Assembly: GCF_030403505.1 (NCBI RefSeq)
Contig: NZ_JAUEMJ010000002.1
Coordinates: forward strand, 1,054,554 to 1,118,553
Source: Glycomyces tritici
Lineage (GTDB): Bacteria > Actinomycetota > Actinomycetes > Mycobacteriales > Micromonosporaceae
DNA: 64,000 bases
Reading direction: 5' to 3'
Shown: piece after piece, positions 20,768 to 34,798 of the stretch
How positions within the stretch are numbered: the stretch's first letter is position 1
How the letters are laid out: every line of letters begins with the position of its first letter
Translations under genes and position numbers: made by a program
The notes under the pieces: generated by a model
What the model was told of the DNA's origin: nothing
Databases searched by the model: none
What the model saw: the letters and a program-made list of their open reading frames with translations, nothing else

Positions 20768-21737
20768 CGCTTGCCTCCTGCAGTTTCTGCTCCACTTCGG
20801 CTTCGGTCGGCATGGCGTCGGAGCAGGCGAGTGCGCCCGCGACGAGCGCGCCCGCCGCGTTGGCGAAGCGCATGATGCGCTCGGTGCCCCAGCCGGCGAG
20901 CAGGCCGTGGACGAGTGCGCCGCCGAAGGCGTCGCCCGCGCCGAGGCCGTTGACCACGGTCACGGGTGCGGGCGGCACTTCCACCTGCCCGCTGTCGTCG
21001 AGGGCGAGGACGCCTTTCGGACCCTGCTTGACGACGGCGAGCGAGACGCCGGCCGCGCGGAGCGCCTGGGCGGCTTCGGCGGGAGCGTCATGGGCGCCTA
21101 CGGCCACTTCGCACTCCTCGCGGTTGCCGACCGCGACGGTGACGTGCGGCAAGGCCAGTTTCACCCAGTCGCGGGCGGCCTGGGGCGAGTCCCAGAACAT
21201 CGGCCGGTAGTCCAGGTCGAGCACGGTGATGCCGCGCTTGCCCTCCCGGCGCAGGTGATCGCTCCTCGCTTCGAGGGCGGCGAGTGTCGCCGAGCGCGAG
21301 GGCTCCTGGCAGAGGCCGGTGACCGTGACCCAGAAGACCGAGGCGTTCCGGATGGCCTCGAGGTCGAGTTCCTCGGGGCGGATGTCGAGGTCAGGGGCGG
21401 TCGGGAAGCGGTAGAAGTAGAGCGGGAAGTCGTCAGGGGGGAAGATCTCGCAGAACGTGACGGGCGTGGGCAGGCCCGCGGAGGTCCCGACGAGGGAGTC
21501 GTCCACTCCGTACCCTCGGAGCGCCTTGCGCACGAACGTCCCGAAGGGGTCGGCGCCGGTCTTGGTGATCACGGCGGCGGTGCGCCCGTACCGTGCGGCC
21601 GCCACGGCGACGTTCGTGGGGCTGCCGCCCAGGAACTTGCCGAAGGACTCGACGTCCTCGAGGCCGACGCCGATCTGCTGCGGGTAGATGTCGACCCCTA
21701 CCCGGCCCATCGTGACGACGTCATGCGTCGCGGCCAC
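20757..21737 (-). CDS. iolC: 5-dehydro-2-deoxygluconokinase
   Basis: A 326-residue PfkB/ribokinase-family sugar kinase that phosphorylates 5-dehydro-2-deoxy-gluconate. The N-terminal GRVGVDIYPQQIGVGLEDVESFGKFLGGSPTNVAVAAARYG is close to IolC proteins. DLDYRPMFW and NREECEVAVG follow, and the C-terminal PfkB signature VVNGLGAGDAFGGALVHGLLAG holds the catalytic aspartate. The GTG start at 21737 has GGGAGGTGAG at ideal spacing. It is the first gene of the seven-gene iol transcript and sits directly below the promoter and operators at 21760-21836. Confidence 0.93.
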   Translation of the reverse strand: MAATHDVVTMGRVGVDIYPQQIGVGLEDVESFGKFLGGSPTNVAVAAARYGRTAAVITKTGADPFGTFVRKALRGYGVDDSLVGTSAGLPTPVTFCEIFPPDDFPLYFYRFPTAPDLDIRPEELDLEAIRNASVFWVTVTGLCQEPSRSATLAALEARSDHLRREGKRGITVLDLDYRPMFWDSPQAARDWVKLALPHVTVAVGNREECEVAVGAHDAPAEAAQALRAAGVSLAVVKQGPKGVLALDDSGQVEVPPAPVTVVNGLGAGDAFGGALVHGLLAGWGTERIMRFANAAGALVAGALACSDAMPTEAEVEQKLQEASDAA

Positions 21738-21759
21738 GGGCTCACCTCCCTCTGGAATC

Positions 21760-21771
21760 TGGAGCGCTCCA
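21760..21771. promoter_or_regulatory. LacI-type operator in the iol promoter region
   Basis: TGGAGCGCTCCA is a perfect 12-bp palindrome with the central CG typical of LacI-family operators, and is very similar to the CebR box TGGGAGCGCTCCCA of Streptomyces. It lies between the inferred iol transcription start and the iolC start codon, where a bound repressor would block elongation. The divergent LacI regulator is the obvious ligand. Confidence 0.7.
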
Positions 21772-21783
21772 CTGTCGCGCGTT

Positions 21784-21799
21784 ACTGTCGCGCGACAGT
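21784..21799. promoter_or_regulatory. 16-bp palindrome at the iol transcription start
   Basis: ACTGTCGCGCGACAGT is a perfect 16-bp palindrome. Its left half plus two bases (ACTGTCGCGC) recurs as a direct copy at 21771-21780, 13 bp away. The palindrome sits just below the -10 box of the iol promoter. It differs from the LacI-type site beside it, so it may be a second site for the same regulator or a site for another one. Confidence 0.6.
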
Positions 21800-21806
21800 G
21801 ATTTGG

Positions 21807-21836
21807 AATATACTCACTTCCGGGCCCGCGCGTCAA
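21807..21836 (-). promoter_or_regulatory. Sigma-70-type promoter of the iol operon
   Basis: On the minus strand, TTGACG (-35, 21831-21836) is separated by 18 nt from TATATT (-10, 21807-21812). This is one of the few strong, AT-rich promoters readable in the window. Transcription should start near 21800, inside the palindrome. Confidence 0.75.
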
Positions 21837-21907
21837 GCCGCCCGGCAGGACGGAAATAAACTCGGGTCACCGGCCGTGCGCCCCCGAGGCCAGGAGAGGA
21901 TGAGGCG

Positions 21908-22948
21908 TTGGACGAAACGCTCGACCCCCAGCAGGAGGCGGCCCGCAAGGGCGCCCCGCAGCGCGCCACCATGGCCGACGTCGCCAAGCGGGCCGGCGTC
22001 TCCCGCACGCTCGTCTCCCTCGTCCTGCGCGACCGCCCCGGCGCGGGCGCCGCGACCCGAGAGCGGGTCCTCAAGGCCGCCGACGAGCTCGGCTACCGGC
22101 CCGACAGCGCCGCCCAGATGCTCGCCCGCGGCCGCAGCCGCACCCTCGGAGTCCTCATGAACCTCGAGCAGCCCTTCCACGCCGAGGTCGTCAAGGCCAT
22201 CTACCCGGCCGCCGGGAAGCTCGGCTACGACGTGCTCCTCTCGGCCGTCGCGCCCGGCCGCGACGAGCACATGGCCACGGGAGCGCTCCTCGGCCACCGC
22301 TGCGAAGCCCTCGTACTCCTCGTCTCCGACCCCGAATCGCACGCCACCGAACGGCTCGGCGGCAGCGTCCCCACCGTCGTCGTCGGCCGCCAGGCCACCA
22401 CGCCCGGCGTCGACAGCGTCCACACCGCCGAAGCCAAAGGCGTCCGCCAGGCCGTCGACCACCTCGTCGACCTCGGCCACCGCCGCATCGTGCACATCGA
22501 CGGCGGCAAAGGCCCCGGCTCGGCCGACCGCCGCACCGCCTACCGCGCCGCCATGCGCCGCCACCGCCTCGCCGACGAGATCCGCGTGATCCCCGGCGCG
22601 CAGGACGAGGACGCCGGCATCGCGGCCGGCACGCTCCTCCTCGGCGAGGACACCCTCCCCACGGCGGTCCTGGCTGCGAACGACCGCTGCGCGATCGGCC
22701 TCATGCACGCCCTGCGCAGCGGCGGCGTGGACGTCCCTGGCGACGTCTCGATCGTCGGCTACGACGACGGCAACCTCTCGCACCTGTCCCACATCAACCT
22801 CACCACGGTCCGTCAGGACGCCACCGGCATCGCCGAGCACGCCGTGCGCAATGCGGTGGAGCGCTTGGAGAACGGGTCCCTGCCGGGCCGGGAGACCGTG
22901 TGCGACGCCCAGCTCGTCGTCCGCGCGACGACGGCCCCGCCCCGCTGA
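21908..22948 (+). CDS. LacI family regulator, probable repressor of the iol operon
   Basis: A 346-residue LacI/GalR regulator. After a variable 20-residue N terminus comes the HTH and hinge ATMADVAKRAGVSRTLVSLVLRDRPGAGAATRERVLKAADELGYRPDSAAQMLA. A periplasmic-binding-like sensor domain follows, with TAVLAANDRCAIGLMHALRSGGVDVPGDVSIVGYDD near the end. A TTG start is preceded by AGGAGAGGATGAGG. It is divergent from iolC with a LacI-type palindrome in the shared region, so I infer local repression relieved by inositol or a pathway intermediate. The inducer is not visible. Confidence 0.88.
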   Translation: MDETLDPQQEAARKGAPQRATMADVAKRAGVSRTLVSLVLRDRPGAGAATRERVLKAADELGYRPDSAAQMLARGRSRTLGVLMNLEQPFHAEVVKAIYPAAGKLGYDVLLSAVAPGRDEHMATGALLGHRCEALVLLVSDPESHATERLGGSVPTVVVGRQATTPGVDSVHTAEAKGVRQAVDHLVDLGHRRIVHIDGGKGPGSADRRTAYRAAMRRHRLADEIRVIPGAQDEDAGIAAGTLLLGEDTLPTAVLAANDRCAIGLMHALRSGGVDVPGDVSIVGYDDGNLSHLSHINLTTVRQDATGIAEHAVRNAVERLENGSLPGRETVCDAQLVVRATTAPPR

Positions 22949-23329: not shown

Positions 23330-23734
23330 CTAGTTCTCGGCGAGTTCGGCGACGGCGGCGGCGGGAATGCGTTCCCAGTCGAGCAGGCGACCGCCCACGC
23401 CGCGCATGGCCTCGGCGAGGGTCGCGGCCCAGGAGTGCTGGAACACGAGCATGCCGATCGCGGTGTCCGGCTGCAGCTCTTCGGCGACGGCCTCGGCGTC
23501 CTCGGCGCTCAGCAACCCGGCGGGTTCGCCCACGAGCGCGGCGAGCCGCTTGTCGACCGTGGCGGCCTCGAGCCACTCGATGGAGCTGTCCGCGCGGCGG
23601 CTGACCAGCAGCGCGTCCAAGACCTCGATGGTGCCGTCGGCCGAGAGCCGTTCGAGCTCGGTGAGGACCCGGCCGTCGAACCGGTTGCCCGAGAACTCGA
23701 CCAGCACCAGGTCGACGGGTGCCTTGCCTGCCAT
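23330..23734 (-). CDS. DUF6325-like protein
   Basis: A 134-residue soluble protein starting MAGKAPVDLVLVEFSGNRFDGRVLTELERLSADGTIEVLDALLVSR, a ferredoxin-like beta-alpha pattern shared by the DUF6325 family (often 'DUF1269 membrane protein-like'). A second unit contains AIGMLVFQHSWAATLAEAMRGVGGRLLDWERIPAAAVAEL. No catalytic motif is apparent. It lies immediately upstream of the SHOCT gene, and the conserved pairing suggests a joint, unknown role at the envelope. Confidence 0.75.
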   Translation of the reverse strand: MAGKAPVDLVLVEFSGNRFDGRVLTELERLSADGTIEVLDALLVSRRADSSIEWLEAATVDKRLAALVGEPAGLLSAEDAEAVAEELQPDTAIGMLVFQHSWAATLAEAMRGVGGRLLDWERIPAAAVAELAEN

Positions 23735-24306: not shown

Positions 24307-25323
24307 TCACCCGGTGTGGTGCACGATCGGGAGCGTCGGCTCGCGGCGCGAACACGTGGTGGCGACCGTCTCCGGCAGGTGCCCCACGACGAGCAGCATG
24401 ACCACGCTCTCGTGGCTCGGCAGGTCGATCACCGTTCGCAGCCGCCGGTCGGGGCGCCGTCCCACGGACCAGTTGAGGCAGCAGCTCCCCAGACCCAGGG
24501 CGTGGAAGGCGTGCACGAGCGACATCGCGAACATGCCGCCGTCCACCCAGACCTGGTTGCGTTCGTGCTCGAACACGAACGCGCGCAGATCGGTGGCGAC
24601 GACCAGCACGTGCGAGGCCGTGTGGCCGAAACCGGTGTTGCCGCCCTGGCAGGCCAGCACCTTGTCGGCCGCGGCGCCGCGGGGGAAGACGTGCACCCTC
24701 CACGCCTGCCGGTTCCAGCCCGAAGGCGAGTGCTGCGCGGCCTCCACCGCGGCGGCGATGTCCTCGGCGGCGACCGGTCGCTCGTCGAACCAGCGGATGC
24801 TGTGCCGGGAGGCGAAGAACGCGAGCGGGTCGGCGGGCGCCGCCTTCAGCAGCTCGTCGCGGGTGTAGGTGACCGTGGCGCCGTCGCCGAGGGCGGCACG
24901 GAGCCGGGTCTGGAGCGCCGCGGACTCGCGCTCGAGGTCCACCGCCCAGGCGGGGGCGCCCGCGGTCTGCGCGTCGTGCCAGGCGAAGTAGGTCCGCAGC
25001 GCTTCGCAGGCCGCCGACGCGGCGAACGAGTCGGGGCGTTCATCAAGGAGCAGGCGGGTGTTCGCGAGCAGGCGGGGCAGCACGGCCTCGCCGAACCACG
25101 GCCGGGGCCGGGCGCTGGCCAGCCCTTTCTCGATCCGGTGGGTGTCGATGACCACGAGCGATTCGAGGGTGCGGGCGCTGCGGGCCCGCAGCGCGCCCGA
25201 ATGGCGCAGGAACCGCGCCGCGTCGTACAGGTAGTCGGTGACGACGTCCCGTCCGCGGGCGAGGGCTCCGGCACGGGCGGGGACGGCGGGCACGCCGCCC
25301 AGGGTCGGCTCACGCATCGGCAT
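24307..25323 (-). CDS. Nitroreductase family flavoenzyme of the RiPP cluster
   Basis: A 338-residue protein. A helical N-terminal half (to about residue 160) includes the family-specific segment VIDTHRIEKGLA. The FMN-binding nitroreductase domain then starts at FFASRHSIRWFDERPVAAEDIAAAVEAAQHSPSGWNRQAWRVHVF. The SxRxF and PS..N.Q motifs contact FMN, and LGLGSCCLNWS and VMLLVVGHLPE complete the fold. GGGAG stands 7 nt before the ATG at 25323; an ATG six codons upstream is possible. It is the last gene of the operon, 21 nt after the amidohydrolase. It could reduce or desaturate a peptide or small intermediate, as related enzymes do for azolines and enones; the substrate here is unknown. Confidence 0.82.
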   Translation of the reverse strand: MPMREPTLGGVPAVPARAGALARGRDVVTDYLYDAARFLRHSGALRARSARTLESLVVIDTHRIEKGLASARPRPWFGEAVLPRLLANTRLLLDERPDSFAASAACEALRTYFAWHDAQTAGAPAWAVDLERESAALQTRLRAALGDGATVTYTRDELLKAAPADPLAFFASRHSIRWFDERPVAAEDIAAAVEAAQHSPSGWNRQAWRVHVFPRGAAADKVLACQGGNTGFGHTASHVLVVATDLRAFVFEHERNQVWVDGGMFAMSLVHAFHALGLGSCCLNWSVGRRPDRRLRTVIDLPSHESVVMLLVVGHLPETVATTCSRREPTLPIVHHTG

Positions 25324-25344
25324 TCGTTGTCTCCCTTGCATTGC

Positions 25345-26688
25345 TCATCGCAGGCGGCGCCCGTCCGGGGTTCCGAACCGTGCGCCTTCGCGGCTGTAGA
25401 CGAGGTTCCCGGCTCTGAAGGTGTGCTCCACGGCGCCGCGGAAGCGCCGGCCCTCGTAGGCCGACCAGCCGCACTTGGCGCCGACCGAGTCGGCGTCGAC
25501 GGTCCATTCGCGCTCGGGGTCGAAGACGACCAGGTCGGCGTCGCGGCCGGGCTCGACCGCGCCCTTGGTGCTGAGGCGGAACAGCCGCGCCGGCGTCTCG
25601 GCGAGGACCCGGACCGCGCACGCCAGCACGGCGGCGTCGCCCAGGTCGGGGGCGGCGGCCTGGACGGCGGCGACCGTGGCGGCCAGCAGCTCCTGGGTGC
25701 CGGGCAGTCCCGGCGGGGCGTCCGGGATCGGGCGGTCCTTCTCCTCGGCCGTGTGCGGGGCGTGGTCGCTGCCGACGGTGGCGGCCTGGCCGGTCAGGAC
25801 CGCGGCGCGCAGCCGCTCGCGGTCGGCCGCGTCCCTGATGGCCGGGCGCAGCCGCAGCCGGGTGCCGGCCTTGGCGGTGTCGGCGTCGGTGAAGGTCAGG
25901 TGATGGCCGGTGACCTCGAAGCTGATCGGCATCCGCTGCCCGGCCGCCGCGAGCAGATCCGCCTCCTCCTTGGTGGAGGCGTGCAGGATGTGGGTGCGGG
26001 TGCCGAACCGCTCGCACAGGCGGATCAGCCGCCAGACCGCGACGATCGCGCCCGTGCGGGGGCGGTGCGGTTCGTAGTCGGCGGCGCTCACCGGGTCCGG
26101 CCGCCAGGTGTCCAGGAGGTCGAACACGTCCTCGTCCTCGGCGTGGAACATGAGCGTCAGGTCGCGTTCCTTCGCGACCGCGAACAGGTCGGCGAGATCC
26201 TCGTCCCGCCGGACCACGTCGGGCGCGGTGTGGTGGCCGCTGAGGAAGACCTTCACCGAGGCCCCCGCGGGGAGGGCCCTGAGCCGGTGCGACTCCCCCG
26301 GGCCGACCCCGGTGTGGAAGGCGTAGTCGACGAGGCTGCGGCCGTCGATCAGGCGCTGCTTGGCGTCGGCGTCGGCGGGCGTGCGCAGCGGCGGGCGGGT
26401 GTTGGGCATGTCGAGGACCGTCGTCACGCCGCCGGCGACGGCGGCGCGGGAGCCGTGGCTCCAGTCCTCCTTCCAGTCCAGGCCCGGCTGGCGGAAGTGG
26501 ACGTGGGAGTCGATCAGTCCGGGCAGGACGAACCCGCCCGCGACGTCCACCGTGCGGGCGCCGGTCGCGCGCCGCCCGGGGTCCAGGAGCGCGGCGATGC
26601 GGCCTTCGGCGACCGCCACGTCGCAGCGGCGTGCGCCGCCCGCGCCGATGACGGTGCCCCCGTGCAGGACCAGGTCGTATTCGCTCAA
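25345..26688 (-). CDS. Dihydroorotase-like cyclic amidohydrolase of the RiPP cluster
   Basis: A 447-residue metal-dependent amidohydrolase of the dihydroorotase/allantoinase/hydantoinase group. All metal ligands are visible: HxH in GLIDSHVHFRQPG, the carboxylatable lysine in SVKVFLSGHH, histidines in LMFHAEDED and HILHAST, and the catalytic Asp in ATVGSDHAPHTAEEKD. The TTG start overlaps the preceding stop (TTGA). Family members open or close cyclic amides such as dihydroorotate, hydantoins and allantoin. No pyrimidine gene is near, so I infer that it acts on a cyclic amide, imide or ureide made in this pathway, for example from an aspartyl residue. That is speculation. Confidence 0.85.
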   Translation of the reverse strand: MSEYDLVLHGGTVIGAGGARRCDVAVAEGRIAALLDPGRRATGARTVDVAGGFVLPGLIDSHVHFRQPGLDWKEDWSHGSRAAVAGGVTTVLDMPNTRPPLRTPADADAKQRLIDGRSLVDYAFHTGVGPGESHRLRALPAGASVKVFLSGHHTAPDVVRRDEDLADLFAVAKERDLTLMFHAEDEDVFDLLDTWRPDPVSAADYEPHRPRTGAIVAVWRLIRLCERFGTRTHILHASTKEEADLLAAAGQRMPISFEVTGHHLTFTDADTAKAGTRLRLRPAIRDAADRERLRAAVLTGQAATVGSDHAPHTAEEKDRPIPDAPPGLPGTQELLAATVAAVQAAAPDLGDAAVLACAVRVLAETPARLFRLSTKGAVEPGRDADLVVFDPEREWTVDADSVGAKCGWSAYEGRRFRGAVEHTFRAGNLVYSREGARFGTPDGRRLR

Positions 26689-27704
26689 GGGGTGCGCTCC
26701 GAGACGGTCAGGGCCGCCAGCGGCCGGTCGGGTCCACTGTGGATGGGAATGTCCACGAGGTCGATGAGGCGCACGGCCTTGTTCCCGATGCCCACACCGA
26801 GCAGGCGGCCGTGCGCGACGACCGCGGTCGCGCTCGTCGCGCCGCCGGGGGTGAGGATCGTCAGCTCGCCGTCCCGGGGGCCGCCGCGCAGTCGGCGGGA
26901 GGGGACCGTGCCGGGGATCGCGCACGCGGCGGCGAGGCTGATGGCGCCGGTGAGGGCGAGGGTCGGGTGCCAGGAGGGGACCGAGATCGCGCGGGCGGCC
27001 ACCGCGCCGTCCGGTCCCGGGGCGACGGCGGCGATCTTGGGGAACGTCCCCGGGCGCCATCCGAGGCGCCGCTCGGCGGCGTCCCTGATCGCGGCCATGC
27101 GGCGGTACAGGTCGTCGCCCGCGGTGAAGAGCGCCGCCGCGGAGTCGGCGCCGAGGCGGGCGGCGTCGACGAAGACGTAGGGGTTGCCCGCGTCCACCCC
27201 CGAGACCTCGGCCCGGCCGCCGGGGACGTCGAGCATGGTGGACGGCTCATCGAAGAGCGTGAGCGCCCGGAGCGGCTTCGGGGCGGCGGCGGTGAAGCGG
27301 ACGGCGTAGGTCGCCGCGCCGGCGCCGCGGCCGGAGGGCTCGCAGTGCACGATGTCGCCGTTGCCGCGCACCGCGACCCGGACCGCCGCACCGGCGTCGG
27401 TCCAGCCGAGCGCCTCGGCTCCCAGGACCGCCGCGAGGATCGAGTGGCCGCAGGTGCCCCGGAGTTCGAAGGCGTCGCGCGCGCCGGGCACCACCTGGAC
27501 GAAGCGGTAGTCGAGTTCGTTGCGTCCCTTGGGTTCGGCGAGCGCGAGTTTGAGCACGGGGCCGAGTCCCGCACCGCGCATCCACCGGCGGACCTCCGCG
27601 AGCCACGAAAGGAGCCCGCCGGCCTCTGGCGGGGCGGCGGCCAGGGGCAGGACCGCGGTCGGGCAGGGGCTTCCCTCGGCCTGGACGATGGCGGCGCGGA
27701 TCAT
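26685..27704 (-). CDS. PrpF-like isomerase (DAP-epimerase fold) of the RiPP cluster
   Basis: A 339-residue protein of the PrpF/AcnD-accessory family, a diaminopimelate-epimerase-like fold. Family blocks seen are GTCGHSILAAVLGAEALG, VSGVDAGNPYVFVDAARLGA, FPKIAAVAPGPDG and VPSWHPTLALTGAISLAAACAIPGTV. The usual N-terminal motif MRGGTSKG is not recognisable; the N terminus reads MIRAAIVQAEGSPCPTAVLPL. The first cysteine of an epimerase pair may be in GTCGH. Such enzymes isomerise double bonds next to carboxylates by proton transfer. It overlaps both neighbours by 4 nt (ATGA at its start, TTGA at its end). A catabolic citrate or tricarballylate role is unlikely in this context. Confidence 0.8.
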   Translation of the reverse strand: MIRAAIVQAEGSPCPTAVLPLAAAPPEAGGLLSWLAEVRRWMRGAGLGPVLKLALAEPKGRNELDYRFVQVVPGARDAFELRGTCGHSILAAVLGAEALGWTDAGAAVRVAVRGNGDIVHCEPSGRGAGAATYAVRFTAAAPKPLRALTLFDEPSTMLDVPGGRAEVSGVDAGNPYVFVDAARLGADSAAALFTAGDDLYRRMAAIRDAAERRLGWRPGTFPKIAAVAPGPDGAVAARAISVPSWHPTLALTGAISLAAACAIPGTVPSRRLRGGPRDGELTILTPGGATSATAVVAHGRLLGVGIGNKAVRLIDLVDIPIHSGPDRPLAALTVSERTP

Positions 27705-29467
27705 CGCGGGCCCCCTTCGGCGAGCGAGTCGAGCCAGAGCCGGTACACGGCCAGCGCCCACAGGGCGAGTGCGGTGTCGGGCGCGGCCCGGTCCTCGACC
27801 GAGTCGACGAGGCGGCGGACGGCGGTGGCGTCGAGGAGGCCTCCGGCGGTCGCGTCCCCCGAGAGCAGGACTTCGCGCAGGTGCTTCCCGAGGGCGGTGC
27901 CGCGTCCGGTCATCGCCGCGATCGGGAGCGTGAACGGCTGCTTGGGGCGGCCCAGGACGCTGTGCGGCAGGAACGGTGCCGCGGCGGCGTAGAGGGCGGG
28001 TTTCGCGGCGGCGCCGGTCGGCTGGAGGGGGCCGGGGAGGTTCGCGGCGAGCGCGCGGATCGACTTCTGGCAGAAGGGGACGCGGACTTCGACGGCCGCG
28101 GCCATGCTGAGGTGGTCGACGCGGCGCAGGTGGTAGGCGTCCAGCCGGGTGCCCACTTCGAGGCCGCGCACCCGCTCCCACCGGGAGCCTCCGGCCGCGG
28201 CGAGCCGGTCGATGAGGCGGTCGCGTTCGGTGCCGTTGCGGGAGAGGAACGCCCGGTAGTCGCCGCTGTAGAGCGTGTGGCGCAGTGCCGGGGGCACCGC
28301 GGCGAGCGCGTCGACGTACCCGGGTATCCAGTCCGGGGCGGCGAGGGCGGCCCGGATGCGGTCGTAACCGCCGAACGCCTCGTCGGCGCCGTCGCCGCTG
28401 ACGGTGACCTTGTACCCGGCGTCGCGGATCGCCTCGAACAGGACCAGGGAGCTGACGGTGATCGGGTCGGCGTTCGGCTGCCCCAGTCGGGCGACGACCT
28501 GCGGCAGGCGGGCGCCGATGTCGGCCGGGTCGAGGAGCACGTCGTGCAGGCGGGCGCCGCTGCGGGCGGCGACCTCGGCCGCGTACCGGTGCTCGTCGAA
28601 GGGCCAGTCGCCGTCGTAGCGGATGTGGAAGGCGTCGACCCCGTCGCGGCCCGCGGCCATCAGCGCGGTGACCAGGCTCGAATCGAGTCCGCCGGAGCAG
28701 ATCACGGAGACCGGGACGTCGGCCCTGGCCAGCCTGCCCACTTCCCGTTCGAGCGCGTCGCGGAGCAGGGCGGCGTACGCGGCCGGGTCCTCGGCACCGG
28801 CCAGCGGTGCGGGCCCGGACCGGTCGATCCGGCGCGGCGCACCGCCGCCGTACACCACTGTGGACCCGGGGGCGATCGCCTTGACGCCGGCGAGGACCGT
28901 GTCTTCACCGAAGGGGGCCTTGGTGGTCAGGTACGCGTCCAGCCCCCCGGGGGTCGGGACCGCCGCGAACCCGGGGAAGGCCCGCATCGCCGGGAGCTCG
29001 GAGGCGAAGCAGACGCCGCCCGAGGCGGGACCCCAGGTGTAGAGGGGTTTCATGCCGGCGTCATCGGTGCACAGGACCAGCGTCGGGCGCTCGCGCGCGT
29101 CGACGACGGCGATCGCGAACATGCCGTCGAGGCGTTCGGCGAAGCCCGGCCCGTACCGGTGGTACAGGGCGGGGATGATCGAGCCGTCGCAGCGGTCGGC
29201 AAACCGGTACCCGAAGCCGCGCAGCTCCTCGCGCAGCAGGTCGTGGTTGTAGATCTCGCCGTTGAAGACGGCGGTGATGCCGTCCAGTTCGTACGGCTGC
29301 GCGCCTCCGGCGGGGTCCATGACCGCGAGGCGGGTCGCGCCCAGGCCCCAGTCCGGGCCATGGCGCCACCCGGCGCCGTCGGGGCCGCCGTGCCGCAGCG
29401 CGCCGGCCAGTTCCGGCAGGGTCGCAGGGTCGATGTCGGCTTCGAAGTATCCAAAGACTCGGCACAC
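27701..29467 (-). CDS. Asparagine-synthetase-like glutamine amidotransferase of the RiPP cluster
   Basis: A 588-residue AsnB homologue. The glutaminase domain begins with the nucleophile Cys2 (V/M-CRVFGYF) and has LRHGGPDGAGW, FNGEIYNHDLLREEL and DDAGMKPLYTW. The ATP-pyrophosphatase domain has the PP-loop SVICSGGLDSSLV and SGDGADEAFGGYDR. Both active sites look intact, so ammonia or a peptide amine could be ligated to an adenylated carboxylate. The GTG start has AGGAGG 7 nt upstream and lies 14 nt after the MFS stop. In lasso-peptide systems homologues close a ring on Asp or Glu; here side-chain amidation of Asp or Glu in the precursor repeats is possible. A plain housekeeping AsnB is unlikely given the overlaps. 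Confidence 0.88.
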   Translation of the reverse strand: MCRVFGYFEADIDPATLPELAGALRHGGPDGAGWRHGPDWGLGATRLAVMDPAGGAQPYELDGITAVFNGEIYNHDLLREELRGFGYRFADRCDGSIIPALYHRYGPGFAERLDGMFAIAVVDARERPTLVLCTDDAGMKPLYTWGPASGGVCFASELPAMRAFPGFAAVPTPGGLDAYLTTKAPFGEDTVLAGVKAIAPGSTVVYGGGAPRRIDRSGPAPLAGAEDPAAYAALLRDALEREVGRLARADVPVSVICSGGLDSSLVTALMAAGRDGVDAFHIRYDGDWPFDEHRYAAEVAARSGARLHDVLLDPADIGARLPQVVARLGQPNADPITVSSLVLFEAIRDAGYKVTVSGDGADEAFGGYDRIRAALAAPDWIPGYVDALAAVPPALRHTLYSGDYRAFLSRNGTERDRLIDRLAAAGGSRWERVRGLEVGTRLDAYHLRRVDHLSMAAAVEVRVPFCQKSIRALAANLPGPLQPTGAAAKPALYAAAAPFLPHSVLGRPKQPFTLPIAAMTGRGTALGKHLREVLLSGDATAGGLLDATAVRRLVDSVEDRAAPDTALALWALAVYRLWLDSLAEGGPR

Positions 29468-29481
29468 GGCCGACCTCCTCA

Positions 29482-30747
29482 CTAGCGGGTGACCGGCTCC
29501 GCTCGCTGTGCGTCCATGTAGGCGGTGCCAGCGCTGCGCCCGGCCGTGAGCCACCAGGCCACGCCGATCGCAGCCGAGATCAGGCCCGCGGCGACGCCGA
29601 GCCCGACGAGGCTCACCGCGGCCAGGGCCGCGCCCAGGGCCGCCAGCGAGATCCTCGCCATCGCGTTGTAGGTGGTGATGTGGACGGAGGTGACGCGGCC
29701 CCGGAACTCCTTCGGCACGGTCTCCAGCAGGATCGTGGTGTCCAGGGCGATGATGTAGCCGCTGGCCACCCGCATCACCATGAGGCAGGCGACGGCCCCG
29801 ATCAGGTTGGGGGCGAGGAAGAACGCGGCCCACCCCAGGCCCTGCACCACATAGCACAGGCCCCAGGCCGAAAGGTGCGCCGAGCGGCGCAGCCGCCCCG
29901 CGAGCACGGTCGCGCCCAGCACGGCGAGGCCGTCGCAGCAGAAGACGACCGCGACGGCAACCGAGTTCCCGCCGAGGTCTTCCACGATGTGGCCGTTGAT
30001 CATCACCGTGTAGCCACCGCCGATGAAGCCCCACGCGATCCCGATCCAGATCACCGACTGCGCCAGCGGGTACCGCCGCGTCGCCCCGAACCCCGCCCGC
30101 AGGTCCGCGGCGAAGCCCCGCAGGTGCGCGCCGAGCCGCTCCGGCTTCGGCCGCCCCGCCGCGACCGGCTCGGGGGCCCGCACGCGGAGCAGCTGGACCA
30201 GGCCGAGGGCGAGCAGGCCCGCGACCGCCAGCATCGCGACGGCGGGCGACCAGATCGAGACGACTCCGGCGCCGACCGCGCCGACGATGGTCATGATGCC
30301 GTTGAGCGAGCCGATCGCCGCGTTCGCCTTCTGCCGCAGATCCTCGCCGACGACACCGTAGAGCCACTGCTGACGCGCGGGCGGCCACAGGGCCGTCGCC
30401 GTGCCCTGCAAGGCGAAGCAGAGCGCGAGCGCGACGAGGCCGCCGCGCTGGGCGCTGGCGGCGGCGCCGACCACGGCGGCGATCTGCACCGCCGCGCCGG
30501 TCAGCGCCAGCTTCCTGACGGAGAGCTTGTCGGCGGCCAGACCGGCGATGGGCATCAGCAGCAGCGCCGGGAGCGCACCGGTCAACTGCACCGCCGCCAG
30601 CGCCGCCGTGTCGGCGACGGACAGCACGTGCAGCGCGACGGTGATGTGCAGCATCCAGAACGCCGCGGAGAAGCACGCGCTCGCGTACCACAGCCTCCTG
30701 GCGTCGAGGTTTCGGAACAGGCTCGGATCGGGAGTAACCGCAGGCAC
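29482..30747 (-). CDS. MFS transporter, probable exporter of the RiPP product
   Basis: A 421-residue major facilitator of the enterobactin-exporter (EntS/MFS_3) type with twelve hydrophobic helices. Segments include FSAAFWMLHITVALHVL, QLTGALPALLLMPIAGLAADKLSVRKLAL, TALWPPARQQWLYGVVGEDLRQKANAAIGS and KEFRGRVTSVH. The GTG start at 30747 has GAGAGAG 5 nt upstream. It is the first gene after the precursor, separated by 83 nt that hold a long hairpin. It probably exports the small product or confers self-resistance; there is no ABC transporter in the cluster. Confidence 0.83.
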   Translation of the reverse strand: MPAVTPDPSLFRNLDARRLWYASACFSAAFWMLHITVALHVLSVADTAALAAVQLTGALPALLLMPIAGLAADKLSVRKLALTGAAVQIAAVVGAAASAQRGGLVALALCFALQGTATALWPPARQQWLYGVVGEDLRQKANAAIGSLNGIMTIVGAVGAGVVSIWSPAVAMLAVAGLLALGLVQLLRVRAPEPVAAGRPKPERLGAHLRGFAADLRAGFGATRRYPLAQSVIWIGIAWGFIGGGYTVMINGHIVEDLGGNSVAVAVVFCCDGLAVLGATVLAGRLRRSAHLSAWGLCYVVQGLGWAAFFLAPNLIGAVACLMVMRVASGYIIALDTTILLETVPKEFRGRVTSVHITTYNAMARISLAALGAALAAVSLVGLGVAAGLISAAIGVAWWLTAGRSAGTAYMDAQRAEPVTR

Positions 30748-30768
30748 CGGCGCTCTCTCATGGGTTTG

Positions 30769-30800
30769 CGCCTCGCCGGCCCGTGCGGGCCGGCGAGGCG
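30769..30800 (-). terminator. Perfect 14-bp hairpin between precursor and downstream genes
   Basis: The stem 30769-30782 pairs with 30787-30800 around a 4-nt loop, all GC-rich, with no T-tract after it. It lies in the 83-nt gap after the precursor stop. Such hairpins after RiPP precursor genes act as partial terminators or RNA stabilisers, so precursor mRNA exceeds enzyme mRNA. That role is inferred. Confidence 0.7.
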
Positions 30801-30830
30801 GACTTGGCGGTAGGGAGCCGTCCGGGGCCG

Positions 30831-31148
30831 CTAGGCGGCGACCAGCTCGGCTTCCTTACCGGCGGACGAAGCGTCCTTCATGACGATCGTGCCGGGACCA
30901 AAGGTCCGGTCCTTACCGGCGGACGACGCGTCCTTCATGACGATCGTCCCCGGACCGAACGACCGGTCCTTACCGGCAGACGACGCGTCCTTCATGACGA
31001 TCGTGCCGGGCCCGAACGTCCGGTCCTTACCGGCGGACGACGCGTCCTTCATGACGATCGTCCCCGGACCGAACGACCGGTCCTTACCGGCAGACGACGC
31101 GTCCTTCATGACGATCGTCCCCGGACCGTACGACTTGGCGTTGCTCAT
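30831..31148 (-). CDS. Repetitive multi-core RiPP precursor peptide
   Basis: A 105-residue peptide: a five-residue start (MSNAK), four 19-residue units and a fifth that ends differently (GKEAELVAA). The consensus unit is SFGPGTIVMKDASSAGKDR; position 1 alternates S/T, and position 2 is Tyr in unit 1 and Phe elsewhere. There is no cysteine, no histidine, and no long leader. At DNA level the unit is 57 bp; units 2 and 4 are identical, showing recent block duplication. AGGAAAGGAAGTG precedes the ATG at 31148. It directly follows the MNIO and partner genes by 29 nt. Invariant GPG, KD and GK(D/E) positions suggest recognition and modification of each unit. The precursor role is inferred from context and repeat structure. 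Confidence 0.85.
   Translation of the reverse strand: MSNAKSYGPGTIVMKDASSAGKDRSFGPGTIVMKDASSAGKDRTFGPGTIVMKDASSAGKDRSFGPGTIVMKDASSAGKDRTFGPGTIVMKDASSAGKEAELVAA
30858..31142 (-). repeat. Five 57-bp in-frame tandem repeats inside the precursor gene
   Basis: The period is exactly 57 bp, equal to 19 codons. Adjacent copies differ at only a few positions, alternating in two sequence variants (GCAGACGACGC versus GCGGACGACGC), and copies 2 and 4 are identical over the full unit. Copy number could change by slippage or unequal recombination without shifting the frame. Confidence 0.92.
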
Positions 31149-31177
31149 CGCGTTCACTTCCTTTCCTGTGTTCGTTG

Positions 31178-32011
31178 CTAACGGGTGTATTCCGCTACGG
31201 ACTCGGCCGGCACCTCGAGGTGCACGACCTTGTCGGCGTAGAGGTCGGAGAGTCCCGCCAGGATCTGGGCGTAGGACCATTCGGGAAGGCGCTCCCCCAG
31301 TTCGAGCGCGCTGGCGGGCCCCTCGGCGAGAGCGGCCACCAGCGGCTCCTCGTCGAGCGGGAACAGCCGCGACCGCTTGTGCTGGCGCCAGTCGCGCTGG
31401 ATCAGCACCCGGGTCCGCTTGGGCGCCAGCCCTTCGCGGTACCGCGGGTCGTCGAGGAGCCGGAGCACGTCGTGCCGGTAGACGCGCACTTCGAAGGGCC
31501 GGCGCAAGGAGGCCCTGAACGTGGGGGCGACCGCTTTCAATCCGGCGGGGTCCGTAGTGGAGCCCTCCGGGAGCGCCTTCGGCGTGTCGGCCACCTTGGT
31601 GATGCTCGCGCACAGCCGCGCGAGATCGATCAGGTACTCGGGCAGGCCGTTGCGGACGATGAAGTCCGTCGCGAACGTCTCGAACCGGCGGGTCTCGGCG
31701 AACCGCTGCCACCACCCGGCACTGTAGACGCGGTCGTACTCGAGGTAGAGCCGGTCGTAGTCGACGTACAGGCGGAGCTCGTCGATGAGGGCCCCGAACA
31801 CGGTGTACGTGCGCCCCGCCCGCTGGTCGCGGACGCTGGTCGCCGCGTGCTCGTACTGGTCCAGGTCGACCGCCGCGATCATGGCGACCTCGGCATCGTC
31901 GAGCCCGAGCTCCTGCTGGAACCTGGCCACGCCCTCGGCGCGGCACTGCTCGCGGAACTCCGGCTCGCGCAGGAAGCGGGTCATGAAGACCTGTGTGGCT
32001 CTGAGGGTCAC
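31178..32011 (-). CDS. Candidate MNIO partner / substrate-recognition protein
   Basis: A 277-residue protein with no clear catalytic motif. The N-terminal 45 residues (FMTRFLREPEFREQCRAEGVARFQQELGLDDAEVAMIAAVDLDQYE) are a helical segment like those of proteins that accompany DUF692 enzymes. The middle is rich in Tyr/Asp/Arg (DELRLYVDYDRLYLEYDRVYSAGWWQRFAETRRFETFATDFIVRNGLPEYLIDLARL). The last 80 residues look like a small winged helix that could bind the precursor. The GTG start overlaps the MNIO stop (GTGA) and the precursor follows 29 nt later. Known MNIOs need a partner (MbnC, TglI and similar); this gene has that position. It shows no sequence motif proving the role. Confidence 0.7.
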   Translation of the reverse strand: MTLRATQVFMTRFLREPEFREQCRAEGVARFQQELGLDDAEVAMIAAVDLDQYEHAATSVRDQRAGRTYTVFGALIDELRLYVDYDRLYLEYDRVYSAGWWQRFAETRRFETFATDFIVRNGLPEYLIDLARLCASITKVADTPKALPEGSTTDPAGLKAVAPTFRASLRRPFEVRVYRHDVLRLLDDPRYREGLAPKRTRVLIQRDWRQHKRSRLFPLDEEPLVAALAEGPASALELGERLPEWSYAQILAGLSDLYADKVVHLEVPAESVAEYTR

Positions 32012-32883
32012 GGCCGGCCTCCGTTCCCGGCGACGCCGAGCAGTTCGCGGCCCCGGTCGAGGGCGTCCTTGAGCTGTTCGGCGCTGGCGTTCGCGGCGGT
32101 CAGGGCGTCCTCGACCTCGAAGATCACCGAGATCGGCCGGAAGTCGGGTTCGGCGAACAGCTCCTCCAGGGTCCGGTCGGCCCACTCCTGTTCGCGCCGG
32201 TACCGGGCCATGTCGGGGCTCTGGAGCTCCTGCGCGTTCCCCAGCGGCAGGTGCACCTGCCAGACGCGGTCGAGCGGCAGGACGGCGAGCTCCTTCTCCC
32301 GGTCCATCGGGTGGTGCTTCTCGGCGGTGATGAAGTTCGAGAGGCTCAGCAGGATGCCCACATCGGCGCCTTCGGCGATGTCGCGGACCTGCTCGCAGAC
32401 CGAGCGCGGCCCGACCTGGTCGAACCACTGCGCCTGGTTCTCGATGGTGATCGGGCAGCCGACGACCTCGTCGAGCCCGGTGAGGTTGTCGATGAAGCAC
32501 TGCGTCTGCTCATCGGTGCCGAACGGCTGGATGAAGGTGCCGGTGTACTGCTCGGTGGTCCCCATGATCCCGATGTGCTCGCCGATGTAGCGGCAGTCGC
32601 TCAGCTCGACCATCCGCGCGAGGCGGTCGGTGACCGCCTGCTTGGGACGGTCGACCGAGCCGATCATGAGCTCGAAGCTGTGCAGGGTCGAGGGCAGCGA
32701 GCCCATCGACGCCGACACGTCGGCGAGGTACTCCGGATCGGACGCGTAGTGCGCGCCGAGGTACTCCATGATGTCGGCGTGCCCCCCGAGCTCCTCCACC
32801 CGCGCATGGAGTGCGGCGAACGCGGGAACGCAGTGGTACAGATATCCGGCACCGATGACCGGTGGTTTGGCCTGCTTGTTCAA
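32008..32883 (-). CDS. DUF692 (MNIO) multinuclear non-haem iron oxidative enzyme, divergent
   Basis: A 291-residue TIM-barrel protein of the DUF692 family (MbnB/TglH-like). Blocks align in order: HADIMEYLGAHYA, LPSTLHSFELMIGSVDR, RYIGEHIGIMG, TFIQPFGTDEQTQ, CPITIENQAQWFD, GILLSLSNFITAEKHH and VWQVHLPLGN. These correspond to the usual HPENY, LHGVxLSLGS, SDHL, PLPYTEE, ENxSxY, LLDxxNxxVxxxNH and HLAGH. Two usual metal-site positions differ: the Asp of LLDxxN is Ser, and HLAGH reads HLPLG. A different iron set or reaction is therefore possible. TTG start overlaps the preceding stop (TTGA). Known members oxidise Cys, Asp, Asn or aromatic residues of peptides; the precursor here lacks Cys, leaving Asp or Phe/Tyr as candidates. 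Confidence 0.82.
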   Translation of the reverse strand: MNKQAKPPVIGAGYLYHCVPAFAALHARVEELGGHADIMEYLGAHYASDPEYLADVSASMGSLPSTLHSFELMIGSVDRPKQAVTDRLARMVELSDCRYIGEHIGIMGTTEQYTGTFIQPFGTDEQTQCFIDNLTGLDEVVGCPITIENQAQWFDQVGPRSVCEQVRDIAEGADVGILLSLSNFITAEKHHPMDREKELAVLPLDRVWQVHLPLGNAQELQSPDMARYRREQEWADRTLEELFAEPDFRPISVIFEVEDALTAANASAEQLKDALDRGRELLGVAGNGGRP

Positions 32884-34085
32884 TTGCGTGCATCCTCCTC
32901 TGCGTCGATGAGCAGCTCATCGGCGATTCGATCTCGGCACATGCCGTTGACGGGTCCCATGAGGGCGGTGGCCTGGGCGTCGCGCAGATGCCGTTCGAGC
33001 GGCAGGTCGGTCATGAAACCGAGCGACCCCATGCCCCCCAGCAGATCGCGGGTGACGGCGACCGACGCGTCGGTCAGGTGCGCTTTCAACCGGCTGGCGG
33101 CGCCGTAGGCGGACTCCGGCCGCACGGCGGTCGCCCGCACGAGCGCCGCGGCGTACGCGTACATGGCCTCGACCTTCGTCGCGGCCTCCGCCAGCACGCG
33201 CCGCGAGTGCGGGTCCTTCGCACGCGGCGGGACGCCGTCGACACGGCCGCCGTACGCGCGCCGCGCGAAGTCGAGCGATGCCGCGGCGGCGCCGAGGGCG
33301 ATCAGCCCCGGGTTCAGCGGCGTCTGGTGGTTGGCGCGCATGAGCGCCGGAGCCGTGCCGAACCCGGACAGGACGTCGTGCTCCGCGACGGGCGCGCCTT
33401 CGAGGACGATCGTCCCGGTGCTGGTGCCGCGCAGGCCCATCATGCGGTAGACGTTCGCGACCTTCACCCCGTTCCCGTGCATGTCGACCCGCACGAACGT
33501 GGGGCCGGCCCCGGGCACGTCCTCGGCGCGCAGGAGCACGTCGACGACCGAGGCGGAGGTCAGGCCCGTGCAGAAGCTCTTGACGCCGTCGATCGCGAAC
33601 CGGTCGCCCTTGGGGCGCATGACGGTCTGCAGATCGGTCTTCCGGGCCGCACCGAAGGGCTCGGTCCAGGCGCTGGCGGCGATCATGTCGCCGCGGGCCA
33701 TCGCGACGAGATCGTCCGCGCGGCGCTCGTCGTCGGCGAACGCGAGCGTCCGGGCAACGACCTGGCAGTGGAACATGAGGATCGCGGCGGTGCTGGCGCA
33801 GCCGCGGGCGACGCGCTCGACCATCGCCGCCGCCGTGCCGTTGTCGAATCCGAGCCCTCCGAACTCGACCGGGATCTGCACCCCGAACGCGCCGATGTCG
33901 CAGAGCGCCTTGATCGGCGCGGCCGGATGCAGGGACTCCCGGTCGACCGCGTCGGCGGCCGGAGCCACGGATGCATCGACCACTGTGTCCAGTTCATTCA
34001 TCCATGAACGGGCGGAGTCCGGTGCCCCGGAAAGGCAGGAGTCCCGAAACCCGACTTGCATGAGACGATCCAGGTGTTCATCCAT
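32880..34085 (-). CDS. Acyl-CoA dehydrogenase-like flavoprotein of the RiPP cluster
   Basis: A 401-residue protein with the acyl-CoA dehydrogenase fold: helical N domain (IKALCDIGAFGVQIPVEFGGLGFD), beta domain (ASAWTEPFGAARKTDLQTVMRPKGDRFAIDGVKSFCTG) and C-terminal helical domain (LLGGMGSLGFMTDLPLERHLRDAQATALMGPVNG). Where ordinary members have the catalytic-base motif YEGT, this one reads LMGPVN, so classical alpha-proton abstraction from a CoA thioester is doubtful. It may be an oxidase, hydroxylase or desaturase acting on a peptide or small amine. The ATG at 34085 has AAGGG upstream. It is the first gene of the operon, and its stop overlaps the MNIO start. Confidence 0.83.
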   Translation of the reverse strand: MDEHLDRLMQVGFRDSCLSGAPDSARSWMNELDTVVDASVAPAADAVDRESLHPAAPIKALCDIGAFGVQIPVEFGGLGFDNGTAAAMVERVARGCASTAAILMFHCQVVARTLAFADDERRADDLVAMARGDMIAASAWTEPFGAARKTDLQTVMRPKGDRFAIDGVKSFCTGLTSASVVDVLLRAEDVPGAGPTFVRVDMHGNGVKVANVYRMMGLRGTSTGTIVLEGAPVAEHDVLSGFGTAPALMRANHQTPLNPGLIALGAAAASLDFARRAYGGRVDGVPPRAKDPHSRRVLAEAATKVEAMYAYAAALVRATAVRPESAYGAASRLKAHLTDASVAVTRDLLGGMGSLGFMTDLPLERHLRDAQATALMGPVNGMCRDRIADELLIDAEEDARN

Positions 34086-34555
34086 CCGCTGCGGCCCTTC
34101 CGTATCTGGGCACGCCAAAGCGCTGCCAGGTCGGCTTGCACGGTCGTGAGGGAAGTCGCCATCGGACGACCGGAGCGCCCTTGCTCCGGCACGACGGCAG
34201 TCGATTCGAGCAGTGCGCGGCGGGCATGAGCCCTGTAGTCCCGAGCGCACTTGCTGTGGTGGACGCGACTCCATGCTATGACCGCGATTGCCGCGAAGTC
34301 GAGTGCGAAGTCCGGATCAGGACATAAGGAGGCCTTGCCCCGCTTTGCCCGTAGCGATCGAGGAGGGCAGATGCTTCGATTCGAGAACCGTTGCGGCGCA
34401 ACACTATCGACCATCGTTCGACAGCGGTGGTTTTGCGGGGGTTTCCGTTGGCGGGCACGGAAAGTGAACTGCCCGAGGCGACGCTTCGTGATACCGTCTT
34501 CACTCAACGGGGGTACGCAACGCTAGAGAACCGGCACTGAGAGAGAACGCGTGCA
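34086..34555. other. Divergent promoter region of the RiPP cluster and its HTH gene
   Basis: About 470 nt between the first cluster gene and the HTH gene. Its base composition is lower in GC than that of flanking genes, and it holds a 7-bp stem CCGGAGC/GCTCCGG at 34170-34189. I find no convincing ORF: frames crossing it lack ribosome-binding sites. No unambiguous -35/-10 pair could be picked out. Both promoters must lie here. Confidence 0.6.
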
Positions 34556-34798
34556 GTGAACTACACCCACCCCAGCGCAGATCAATTCTCCGACCGCGAC
34601 CGCCAGATCCTCGCGAACCTCGTCGCCGCCCCCGACCAGCAGACCGCGGCGGCCTGGCTCGGCATCACCGACCGGCATCTCCGCCGGAGAATCGACGCCA
34701 TCATGCGCCGGCTCGGCGCGGAGACCACGTACCAGATGATCGTTCTGGCCACCCAAAAAGGACTCATAGATCCCAAGGCCCTGCCCGCCGACACCTGA
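34556..34798 (+). CDS. Stand-alone LuxR-type HTH protein beside the RiPP cluster
   Basis: An 80-residue protein that is essentially one GerE/LuxR-type HTH domain: FSDRDRQILANLVAAPDQQTAAAWLGITDRHLRRRIDAIMRRLGAETTYQMIVLATQKGLI. Typical LuxR landmarks are present (SxRxxxIL, LGIT...VRRxIxxIxxKLG with R for V/K variants, A...A...G terminal helix). There is no sensor or receiver domain. The GTG start is preceded by GAGAGAACGC. It is divergent from the biosynthetic operon, so it is the natural candidate for a pathway-specific regulator, possibly working as a dimer or with a partner. 34799-34973 after it holds no supported gene. Confidence 0.8.
   Translation: MNYTHPSADQFSDRDRQILANLVAAPDQQTAAAWLGITDRHLRRRIDAIMRRLGAETTYQMIVLATQKGLIDPKALPADT

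Follow-up and report, generated by a model that had tools for sequence, protein, structure and literature searches.

We analyzed a 64,000-nucleotide stretch of Glycomyces tritici DNA (contig NZ_JAUEMJ010000002.1; hereafter the window) that carries a nine-gene operon on its minus strand (24307-34085). The operon encodes a 105-residue repeat peptide beside a multinuclear non-heme iron-dependent oxidative enzyme (MNIO, DUF692) and a partner protein; the models predicted for these two proteins match TglH and TglI. From the sequences and these models, we consider it probable that the MNIO and its partner oxidize one lysine in each repeat of the peptide and that a flavoenzyme of the acyl-CoA dehydrogenase (ACAD) fold and a PrpF-like isomerase then rework that residue. 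The operon likely represents a natural-product pathway that is new relative to the literature searched.

A repeat gene is conserved beside an MNIO and its partner

The precursor peptide (MSNAKSYGPGTIVMKDASSAGKDRSFGPGTIVMK...) consists of five units, and its gene is a tandem repeat with a 57-base unit in 4.9 copies and 92% matches (Tandem Repeats Finder, TRF). An earlier note on this DNA, made from its letters, had read a five-repeat peptide here, and the repeat analysis agrees. Codon differences between the window units over the 16-residue core are 29 synonymous versus 4 non-synonymous, counted over pairs that are not independent, where random single changes in the repeat core would give an expected synonymous share of 25%. 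Since the differences between units are mostly synonymous, the window peptide looks like a real, selected product. Its one NCBIfam match, a SusC signature at E 3e-4, falls below the cut-off and looks like chance.

A profile scan of species genomes found 11 loci, and two more were found in the genus of Streptomyces sp. S465 (G003). The repeat gene lies next to the partner gene in all 13 loci whose contig reaches it (the window, L001-L009, L011, L018, and L019), and the gene order ACAD, MNIO, partner, repeat gene is found in the same 13; the L010 contig ends in the partner gene, before any repeat gene, and leaves that precursor unread. A RiPP (ribosomally synthesized and post-translationally modified peptide) pathway is recognized by an encoded precursor beside its modifying enzymes, and these are conserved here as a unit in 13/13 reachable loci. 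The earlier note had proposed a RiPP system of an MNIO, a partner, and a repeat precursor, and had named beforehand the lack of a conserved repeat gene beside the MNIO as the observation that would count against it; the conserved gene and the models described below uphold the proposal.

The window MNIO scores 60.3 bits against PF05114, for which the gathering score is 25, and its sequence alone gave no meaningful match in a search of the PDB. Its predicted model has the fold of TglH and MbnB and best matches TglH, and the partner model best matches TglI; these are two chains of one solved complex, the TglHI holoenzyme. The partner has an N-terminal helical domain and a domain of the RiPP recognition element (RRE) type, is without the DUF2063 signature, and is encoded after the MNIO, as in the definition of a PME-type 2 partner given in a survey of the MNIO landscape (PMC12452194).

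Every repeat unit closes on the same lysine

Our repeat survey comprised 63 units from 15 precursors, including two further precursors (P0044 and P0045, proteins without genome context) that came from a precursor homology search. The count omits the masked part of L005 and three units of L011, one of which carries a deletion and two of which, both having the Lys, lie in a third frame piece. Since L002, L003, L004, and L018 are close relatives, the independent precursors number at most 12.

Across precursors, the units share a nine-residue block, x-[GS]-[PA]-x-x-x-[VA]-[MVA]-K. The first block residue is mostly aromatic (Phe in 39, Trp in 9, and Tyr in 1 of the 63 units), Thr occupies position -4 in 49/63, and Pro occupies position -6 in all units except one. 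The Lys that closes the block, at a position 0 that the unit-collecting pattern left unconstrained, is present in 63/63 units. Cys was seen in none of the 15 precursors and was rejected as the target. Asp was not seen in six (L002, L003, L004, L018, P0044, and L008, the last read to its contig end only) and was rejected as a family-wide target. With Lys in every unit and Asp unseen in 6/15 precursors, Lys is the best target candidate, and Pro is the second.

The earlier note had placed the modification probably at Asp, and this did not hold up. Hydroxylation of Asp as in the nitrilobacillin pathway would suit the window units, which contain KDASSAGKD, and an MNIO that hydroxylates Asp together with an AsnB-like enzyme that depends on this step has been published (PMC13060819). 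However, the six family precursors in which no Asp was seen contradict it as a family-wide mechanism, and we regard it as most improbable.

Alternatively, Pro at position -6 or the aromatic or hydrophobic residues of the block might be oxidized, with Lys serving only for recognition or as a protease site and the product being a modified peptide cut after Lys. The near-constant Pro fits this explanation, as do the matches of the ACAD-like protein, which include the prolyl-peptidyl carrier protein (PCP) dehydrogenase RedW, and a host trypsin-like cleavage after Lys would release each unit. Yet one unit lacks Pro and none lacks Lys, RedW is not the best match, and the other repeat Lys of the window units (AGKDR) is not common to the other precursors; we therefore judge this explanation unlikely. 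The 'MK' context of the block resembles biotin attachment sites, a reading that was dropped because the repeats are short and none of the nine genes encodes a biotin ligase.

The MNIO belongs to a subfamily that lacks most residues of the third iron site

In TglH, Fe1 and Fe2 are held by His71, His107, Glu151, Asp184, His216, and Glu258, and Fe3 by Asp184, Asn187, Asp229, and His231 (PMC10880893). In our subfamily alignment, His68, His103, Glu148, Asn183, His211, and Glu256 are kept in 29/29 sequences, while Ser180, also in 29/29, stands where all four ordinary DUF692 proteins carry the Asp that bridges Fe2 and Fe3. Ligands were equated by order, by spacing, and through these four ordinary DUF692 paralogues from the relatives' genomes (L022-L025), TglH itself not being aligned residue by residue. 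The motif LLS[LM]SN, with Ser in place of the bridging Asp, is present in 43/43 MNIO homologues, two of which (P0022 and P0042) are short and possibly incomplete, and a downstream D-x-H as at site 3 is present in one of the 43 (P0014), where it is out of register with the site-3 motif.

The bridging Asp and the D-x-H ligands of site 3 are reported to be highly conserved in MbnB homologues, and PbsC, a characterized MNIO, keeps Asp213, Asp260, and His262 as predicted ligands (PMC12257519). Since membership of our subfamily among the MNIOs rests on PF05114 and on the fold, the missing bridging Asp and D-x-H mark a variant. We predict from the sequences that the subfamily is a two-iron MNIO with sites 1 and 2 only. 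Glu71 and Glu102, which are invariant in 29/29 where the four ordinary DUF692 proteins have Ser and Asp, could be substitute metal ligands.

The same replacement of Asp by Ser in 43/43 relatives, together with the missing D-x-H, would also suit an MNIO-like protein without oxidase activity, a scaffold or decoy like PesX of the nitrilobacillin pathway, with the flavoprotein as the oxidizing enzyme. This is very unlikely in our view, since His68, His103, Glu148, His211, and Glu256 are invariant, whereas PesX is described as being without conserved iron-binding residues (PMC13060819), and since no second MNIO-like gene was found among the nine operon genes.

A flavoenzyme and a PrpF-like protein complete the core

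All 10 complete actinobacterial loci (the window, L001-L005, L007, L011, L018, and L019; L006 ends inside the repeat gene) carry genes for the ACAD-like protein, the MNIO, the partner, the repeat peptide, a major facilitator superfamily (MFS) transporter, a PrpF-like protein, and a nitroreductase-family protein. The catalytic Glu of an ACAD lies either at the YEGT position or at the alternative position of the isovaleryl-CoA dehydrogenase (IVD) type. In an alignment to short-chain acyl-CoA dehydrogenase (SCAD), the usual Glu aligns to Gly377 of the window protein, which is invariant in 13/13, and by our reading of the 13-sequence alignment there is no conserved Glu at the alternative position. 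Since neither position holds the base, ordinary acyl-CoA dehydrogenation is unlikely.

In the PrpF-like protein, Lys52 and Cys85, 33 residues apart, are invariant in 9/9 actinobacterial sequences. The corresponding pair in Shewanella PrpF is K73/C107 at a spacing of 34, where variants substituted at these residues could not sustain growth with propionate alone, although those at C107 retained some activity in vivo (PMC5690661). The earlier note had cast PrpF as a late small-molecule enzyme, a role that now appears too narrow. Genes for a PrpF-like protein, the ACAD-like protein, the MNIO, and the partner also stand in a row in L008 (Chromatiales, Pseudomonadota), L009 (Phycisphaeraceae, Planctomycetota), and L010 (a Deltaproteobacteria metagenome-assembled genome, MAG, placed in Myxococcota in the tree output), with the repeat gene after the partner and then the contig end in L008 and L009. 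Since the PrpF-like gene adjoins the ACAD and MNIO genes in these three non-actinobacterial lineages as well, it belongs to the core. These three proteins align to the actinobacterial set with an hhalign probability of 75% (E 2.4e-5), both catalytic positions being aligned, and the L009 protein matches the NCBIfam 4-oxalomesaconate tautomerase model at E 1.4e-8, below the cut-off.

An amidotransferase and an amidohydrolase look like an optional pair

The AsnB-like protein keeps Cys at residue 2 in 7/7 sequences examined and the SGGLDSS motif in 6/7, which fits glutamine-dependent nitrogen transfer, and its best match among solved chains is the hydroxyamidotransferase 7ylz. The amidohydrolase scores above the TIGR00857 cut-off and below the cut-off of the dihydroorotase equivalog models shown. 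Nine checked residues, comprising HxHxR, MPN, the metal-bridging (carboxylated) Lys, two His, and DHAPH, are all kept in 7/7 sequences, and at these residues the alignments place it closer to dihydroorotase than to allantoinase. With the roles that we take these dihydroorotase-type residues to have, a substrate with a carboxylate beside a cyclic amide is suggested. Both seven-sequence checks omit L011, in which most cluster genes (L011:8703-18674, Streptacidiphilus) are frameshifted, probably by sequencing error, and could be read in pieces only. The window nitroreductase shares 30% identity over 127 residues with the short protein of L002; we dropped the idea that it is the same gene as the relatives' short type and treat the two as members of one family with uncertain orthology.

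Eight of the 10 complete loci carry genes for both the AsnB-like protein and the amidohydrolase, and the remaining two carry neither. These two, L007 and L019, make up a single clade in the actinobacterial tree (100/99), sister to L005 (100/100), which has both; we thus count one inferred loss, a single event and not a statistic. Together, these findings indicate that the pair looks like one optional module around a constant core. The earlier note had placed both enzymes in the pathway, where they now look optional.

These enzymes also allow a quite different scheme, in which the conserved Lys serves as an arm that carries a small carboxylic acid. The peptide would then carry acyl groups at many sites: the ACAD-fold protein and the PrpF-like enzyme would work on the acyl chain, the MNIO on the group so bound, and the amidohydrolase would set the chain free. 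Several units per precursor, each with its invariant Lys, are consistent with this scheme, as are enzymes related to those acting on acyl groups or unsaturated acids and the dihydroorotase-type residues of the amidohydrolase. It is nevertheless quite unlikely, as no ligase was seen in all loci, L007 and L019 being without AsnB, and as the glutaminase Cys kept by AsnB fits amidation better than the joining of Lys to an acid, an argument that draws on lasso cyclases and beta-lactam synthetases.

In L007 and L019, YcaO and TfuA genes lie convergent beside the cluster, and these are the only 2 of the 13 related loci searched with a YcaO gene alongside (some loci are short, and the window lay outside that search). 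The adjoining regions L026 (G023, beside the L019 cluster) and L027 (G007, beside the L007 cluster) encode YcaO, TfuA, an ABC-2 transporter pair, a LuxR-type regulator, a cyclase-AAA protein, a subtilase, an S9 peptidase, an FAD oxidoreductase, and a PqqD-like protein. The ABC transporter follows YcaO/TfuA, and the subtilase and PqqD-like genes lie further out on L026, in the L019 genome. Domains were checked on L019/L026, with TfuA and one ABC gene also checked on L007, and the order on L027 was read by eye as far as the contig reaches. The region may be a second RiPP cluster or part of a larger hybrid.

The cluster family is rare and spans several phyla

The named hosts span Actinomycetota, Pseudomonadota, Planctomycetota, and Myxococcota, and the window MNIO groups with the actinobacterial MNIOs in the tree. 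A survey with the MNIO profile at E <= 1e-40 found 5/392 genomes in the genus of G003 (three already known and two new). The same survey found only the centre genome among 396 in the phylum of G003, 294 in the phylum of G009, 249 in the family of G001, 229 in the class of G008, and 235 in the phylum of G010. The cluster family is thus rare across these surveys, an estimate in that the groups were sampled and scoring was confined to the few candidates per genome that ranked best at first look. A search with the partner profile gave at least 7 proteins, including the window's own, a lower bound from the 7,992 scored candidates that shared most words. On plasmids, the search found the cluster nowhere, its one match being a distant DUF692 protein of Halobacillus at 21% identity.

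A BTAD/AAA regulator resembling Streptomyces antibiotic regulatory proteins (SARPs) lies upstream of the ACAD gene in L003 (L003:6252-8510, by Pfam), and similar open reading frames (ORFs) of the same family, assigned by means other than Pfam, lie near the clusters in L004, L018, L005, L006, and L011. SARP-like regulators are typical of Streptomyces secondary metabolism.

A proposed pathway from repeat lysine to small molecule

We infer oxidation of Lys by the MNIO, action of the ACAD-like and PrpF-like enzymes on the same residue, a small exported product, and the order of steps as follows. The RRE-like domain of the partner, to judge from its TglI fold, would hold the precursor and present its units one after another. 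The MNIO, relying by prediction on sites 1 and 2 only, would then oxidize a C-H bond of the Lys closing [GS][PA]x3[VA][MVA]K, the target suggested by its presence in every unit. The ACAD-fold flavoprotein, which is without the usual base, may oxidize the residue further, and the PrpF-like enzyme may shift a proton or double bond through Lys52/Cys85. A host peptidase would free the residue or a short piece; as the earlier note had observed, no protease is encoded among the nine operon genes (Pfam and NCBIfam). In most actinobacterial loci seen, the AsnB-like enzyme would amidate a carboxylate with glutamine nitrogen, the dihydroorotase-like enzyme would close or open an adjacent cyclic amide, the nitroreductase would adjust the redox state, and the MFS protein would export the product, presumably a small nitrogen-rich molecule. 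A precursor with several units would give a correspondingly higher yield of this small product.

Several points weigh against this reading. The 15 precursors are few, with those of L002, L003, L004, and L018 nearly identical, and the pattern used to collect the units allowed only a small set of residues at each of positions -7, -6, -2, and -1, while leaving position 0 open. Pro is nearly as invariant as Lys (62/63), and the invariance of Lys could mean recognition rather than reaction. The contigs of L008-L010 end, leaving their downstream genes out of view, and the PrpF-like proteins of these loci fall below the Pfam cut-off. The lost Fe2-Fe3 Asp could signal a damaged or repurposed enzyme: the TglH variant D184A, at the matching position, is insoluble (PMC10880893), and single Ala variants of HvfB at site 3 are inactive, although its active cluster is two-iron (PMC13419390). 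The TglH variants D229A and H231A retain activity at a low level (PMC10880893). The HvfB results pose the question of why MNIOs keep a third iron site, and a subfamily that naturally lacks most of this site would offer a direct test of it.

Should the reading hold, unmodified Lys would be added to the targets of MNIOs, the PrpF and ACAD folds would enter RiPP chemistry, and the repeat design would turn one short peptide into many copies of a small molecule. In a bolder and more doubtful form, which we hold only tentatively, the clusters would constitute a RiPP class over four phyla in which an MNIO without a third iron site, an ACAD-fold flavoenzyme, and a PrpF-fold isomerase make each repeat Lys into an unsaturated or cyclic amino acid. 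The AsnB/dihydroorotase pair would carry this on to an imide or ureide metabolite, a ribosomal mass production from lysine.

Operon layout and neighborhood

The nine genes are tightly packed and real according to a sequence check; their start codons are our choice. As the earlier note had it, they lie on one strand. Four junctions share stop/start bases in 4-base overlaps: ACAD/MNIO (TTGA, 32880-32883), MNIO/partner (GTGA, 32008-32011), AsnB/PrpF (ATGA, 27701-27704), and PrpF/amidohydrolase (TTGA, 26685-26688); at the remaining four, the genes are separated by 3, 14, 29, and 83 bases. Seven of the nine genes can be named from Pfam and NCBIfam, in agreement with the enzyme identities of the earlier note (ACAD-like, DUF692, MFS, AsnB-like, PrpF-like, dihydroorotase-like, and nitroreductase). 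The Pfam families are Nitroreductase, Amidohydro_1, PrpF, Asn_synthase with GATase_7, MFS_1, MbnB_TglH_ChrH (E 2e-16), and Acyl-CoA_dh; the partner and the 105-residue peptide are without a Pfam family.

Table 1. Genes of the operon and the divergent reading frame, in window positions
Feature	Position	Strand	Basis
ACAD-fold flavoprotein, 401 aa	32880..34085	-	Pfam Acyl-CoA_dh_N/M/1; SCAD alignment; LMGP invariant in 13/13 aligned
MNIO (DUF692) enzyme, 291 aa, TTG start	32008..32883	-	Site 1/2 ligands kept except Asp to Ser180; site 3 mostly lost
MNIO partner, 277 aa	31178..32011	-	TglI-like helical domain and RRE-like domain
Precursor of 105 aa with five units [YF]GPGTIVMK-DASSAGK-(DR[ST])	30831..31148	-	Sequence; tandem repeat; homologous repeat genes
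MFS transporter, likely exporter	29482..30747	-	Pfam MFS_1; in 10/10 complete actinobacterial loci
AsnB-like amidotransferase, GTG start, Cys2 and SGGLDSS loop kept	27701..29467	-	NCBIfam TIGR01536 above cut-off
PrpF-like isomerase, Lys52 and Cys85 invariant	26685..27704	-	Pfam PrpF; alignment of 9
Dihydroorotase-like amidohydrolase, TTG start, residues that bind metal and carboxylate kept	25345..26688	-	NCBIfam TIGR00857 above cut-off; alignment to 2gwn
Nitroreductase-family protein, 344 aa with N-terminal extension	24307..25341	-	Pfam Nitroreductase
Divergent 80-aa protein, weakly similar to LuxR-type helix-turn-helix (HTH)	34556..34798	+	NCBIfam E 3e-7

Upstream of the operon lie the small divergent HTH-like ORF, a tRNA-Met gene, an Era-like GTPase gene (named by eye), and CorC/HlyC-like and YbeY genes. 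The earlier note had called the divergent gene a LuxR-type HTH gene; the divergent ORF is there, but its match to the LuxR-type C-terminal HTH is far below the family cut-off and Pfam gives nothing for it at E 0.01, which makes the name 'LuxR-type' plausible but not certain. On the other side, a DUF6325 protein (23330-23734) is encoded downstream of the nitroreductase with no sign of operon membership. Genes for a thiamine pyrophosphate (TPP) enzyme, a Cgl0159-like protein, and PfkB on the minus strand and for a LacI-type regulator on the plus strand (17144-22948) look like an inositol or sugar catabolic operon, which is outside the present finding.

Comparison with known systems

Among the matches listed in our literature searches, we recognized no paper describing this gene set, in agreement with the earlier note, which knew of no pathway with these enzymes; the searches covered titles and abstract openings, with supplements and the gene names in figure 5b of the landscape paper outside their scope. 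PMC8692599, checked for a cluster with DUF692 and ACAD genes, concerns different clusters in the part available.

TglHI (3-thiaglutamate, pearlin) provides the best structural match for the models of the window MNIO and partner and likewise has a helical and RRE partner. TglA, however, is modified at one C-terminally appended Cys, whereas the window family is free of Cys, has many Lys units within the peptide, and lacks most ligands of iron site 3. The bufferins and oxazolins (BufBC, HvfBC) also pair an MNIO with a partner, and oxazolin precursors can carry 17-residue repeats (PMC12452194); in contrast, they have Cys targets and Sec signal peptides, and HvfB keeps N175, D242, and H244 of site 3 (PMC13419390). 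The PrpF-like protein resembles 4-oxalomesaconate tautomerase in sequence and in the Lys/Cys pair, but it is encoded in a RiPP operon and lies far below the curated cut-offs.

The nitrilobacillin pathway (pes cluster) has an MNIO, a partner, an AsnB-like enzyme, and a transporter, the MNIO hydroxylating Asp and the AsnB-like enzyme making a nitrile (PMC13060819). It differs in its Asp target near the C-terminus, its single core, and its M16 peptidases; no ACAD, PrpF, or amidohydrolase is listed for it in the part of the paper available, which reports orthologues only in Bacillus-related genera (PMC13060819). The window precursor has no C-terminal R(V/T)DN core (it ends ...KEAELVAA), and there is no PesX homologue among the nine genes.

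The std pathway of Streptomyces, which leads to bis-hydroxylated homocitrulline, shares with our operon an MNIO and RRE partner that act on a Lys-derived residue, a Lys that is 100% conserved in the precursors, and an MFS permease (PMC13174530). It differs in its YcaO-TfuA and carbamoyltransferase-peptidase and in its one SNK core at the C-terminus (PMC13174530), where the window operon has ACAD, PrpF, AsnB, and amidohydrolase genes. Neither YcaO-TfuA nor a carbamoyltransferase-S8 fusion was found among the nine window genes, the search for YcaO being confined to these within the window. In the std pathway the MNIO hydroxylates carbamoylated Lys, which sets a precedent for MNIO chemistry on a residue derived from lysine (PMC13174530), and the nitrilobacillin pathway is a precedent for an MNIO and an AsnB-like enzyme in one RiPP pathway (PMC13060819).

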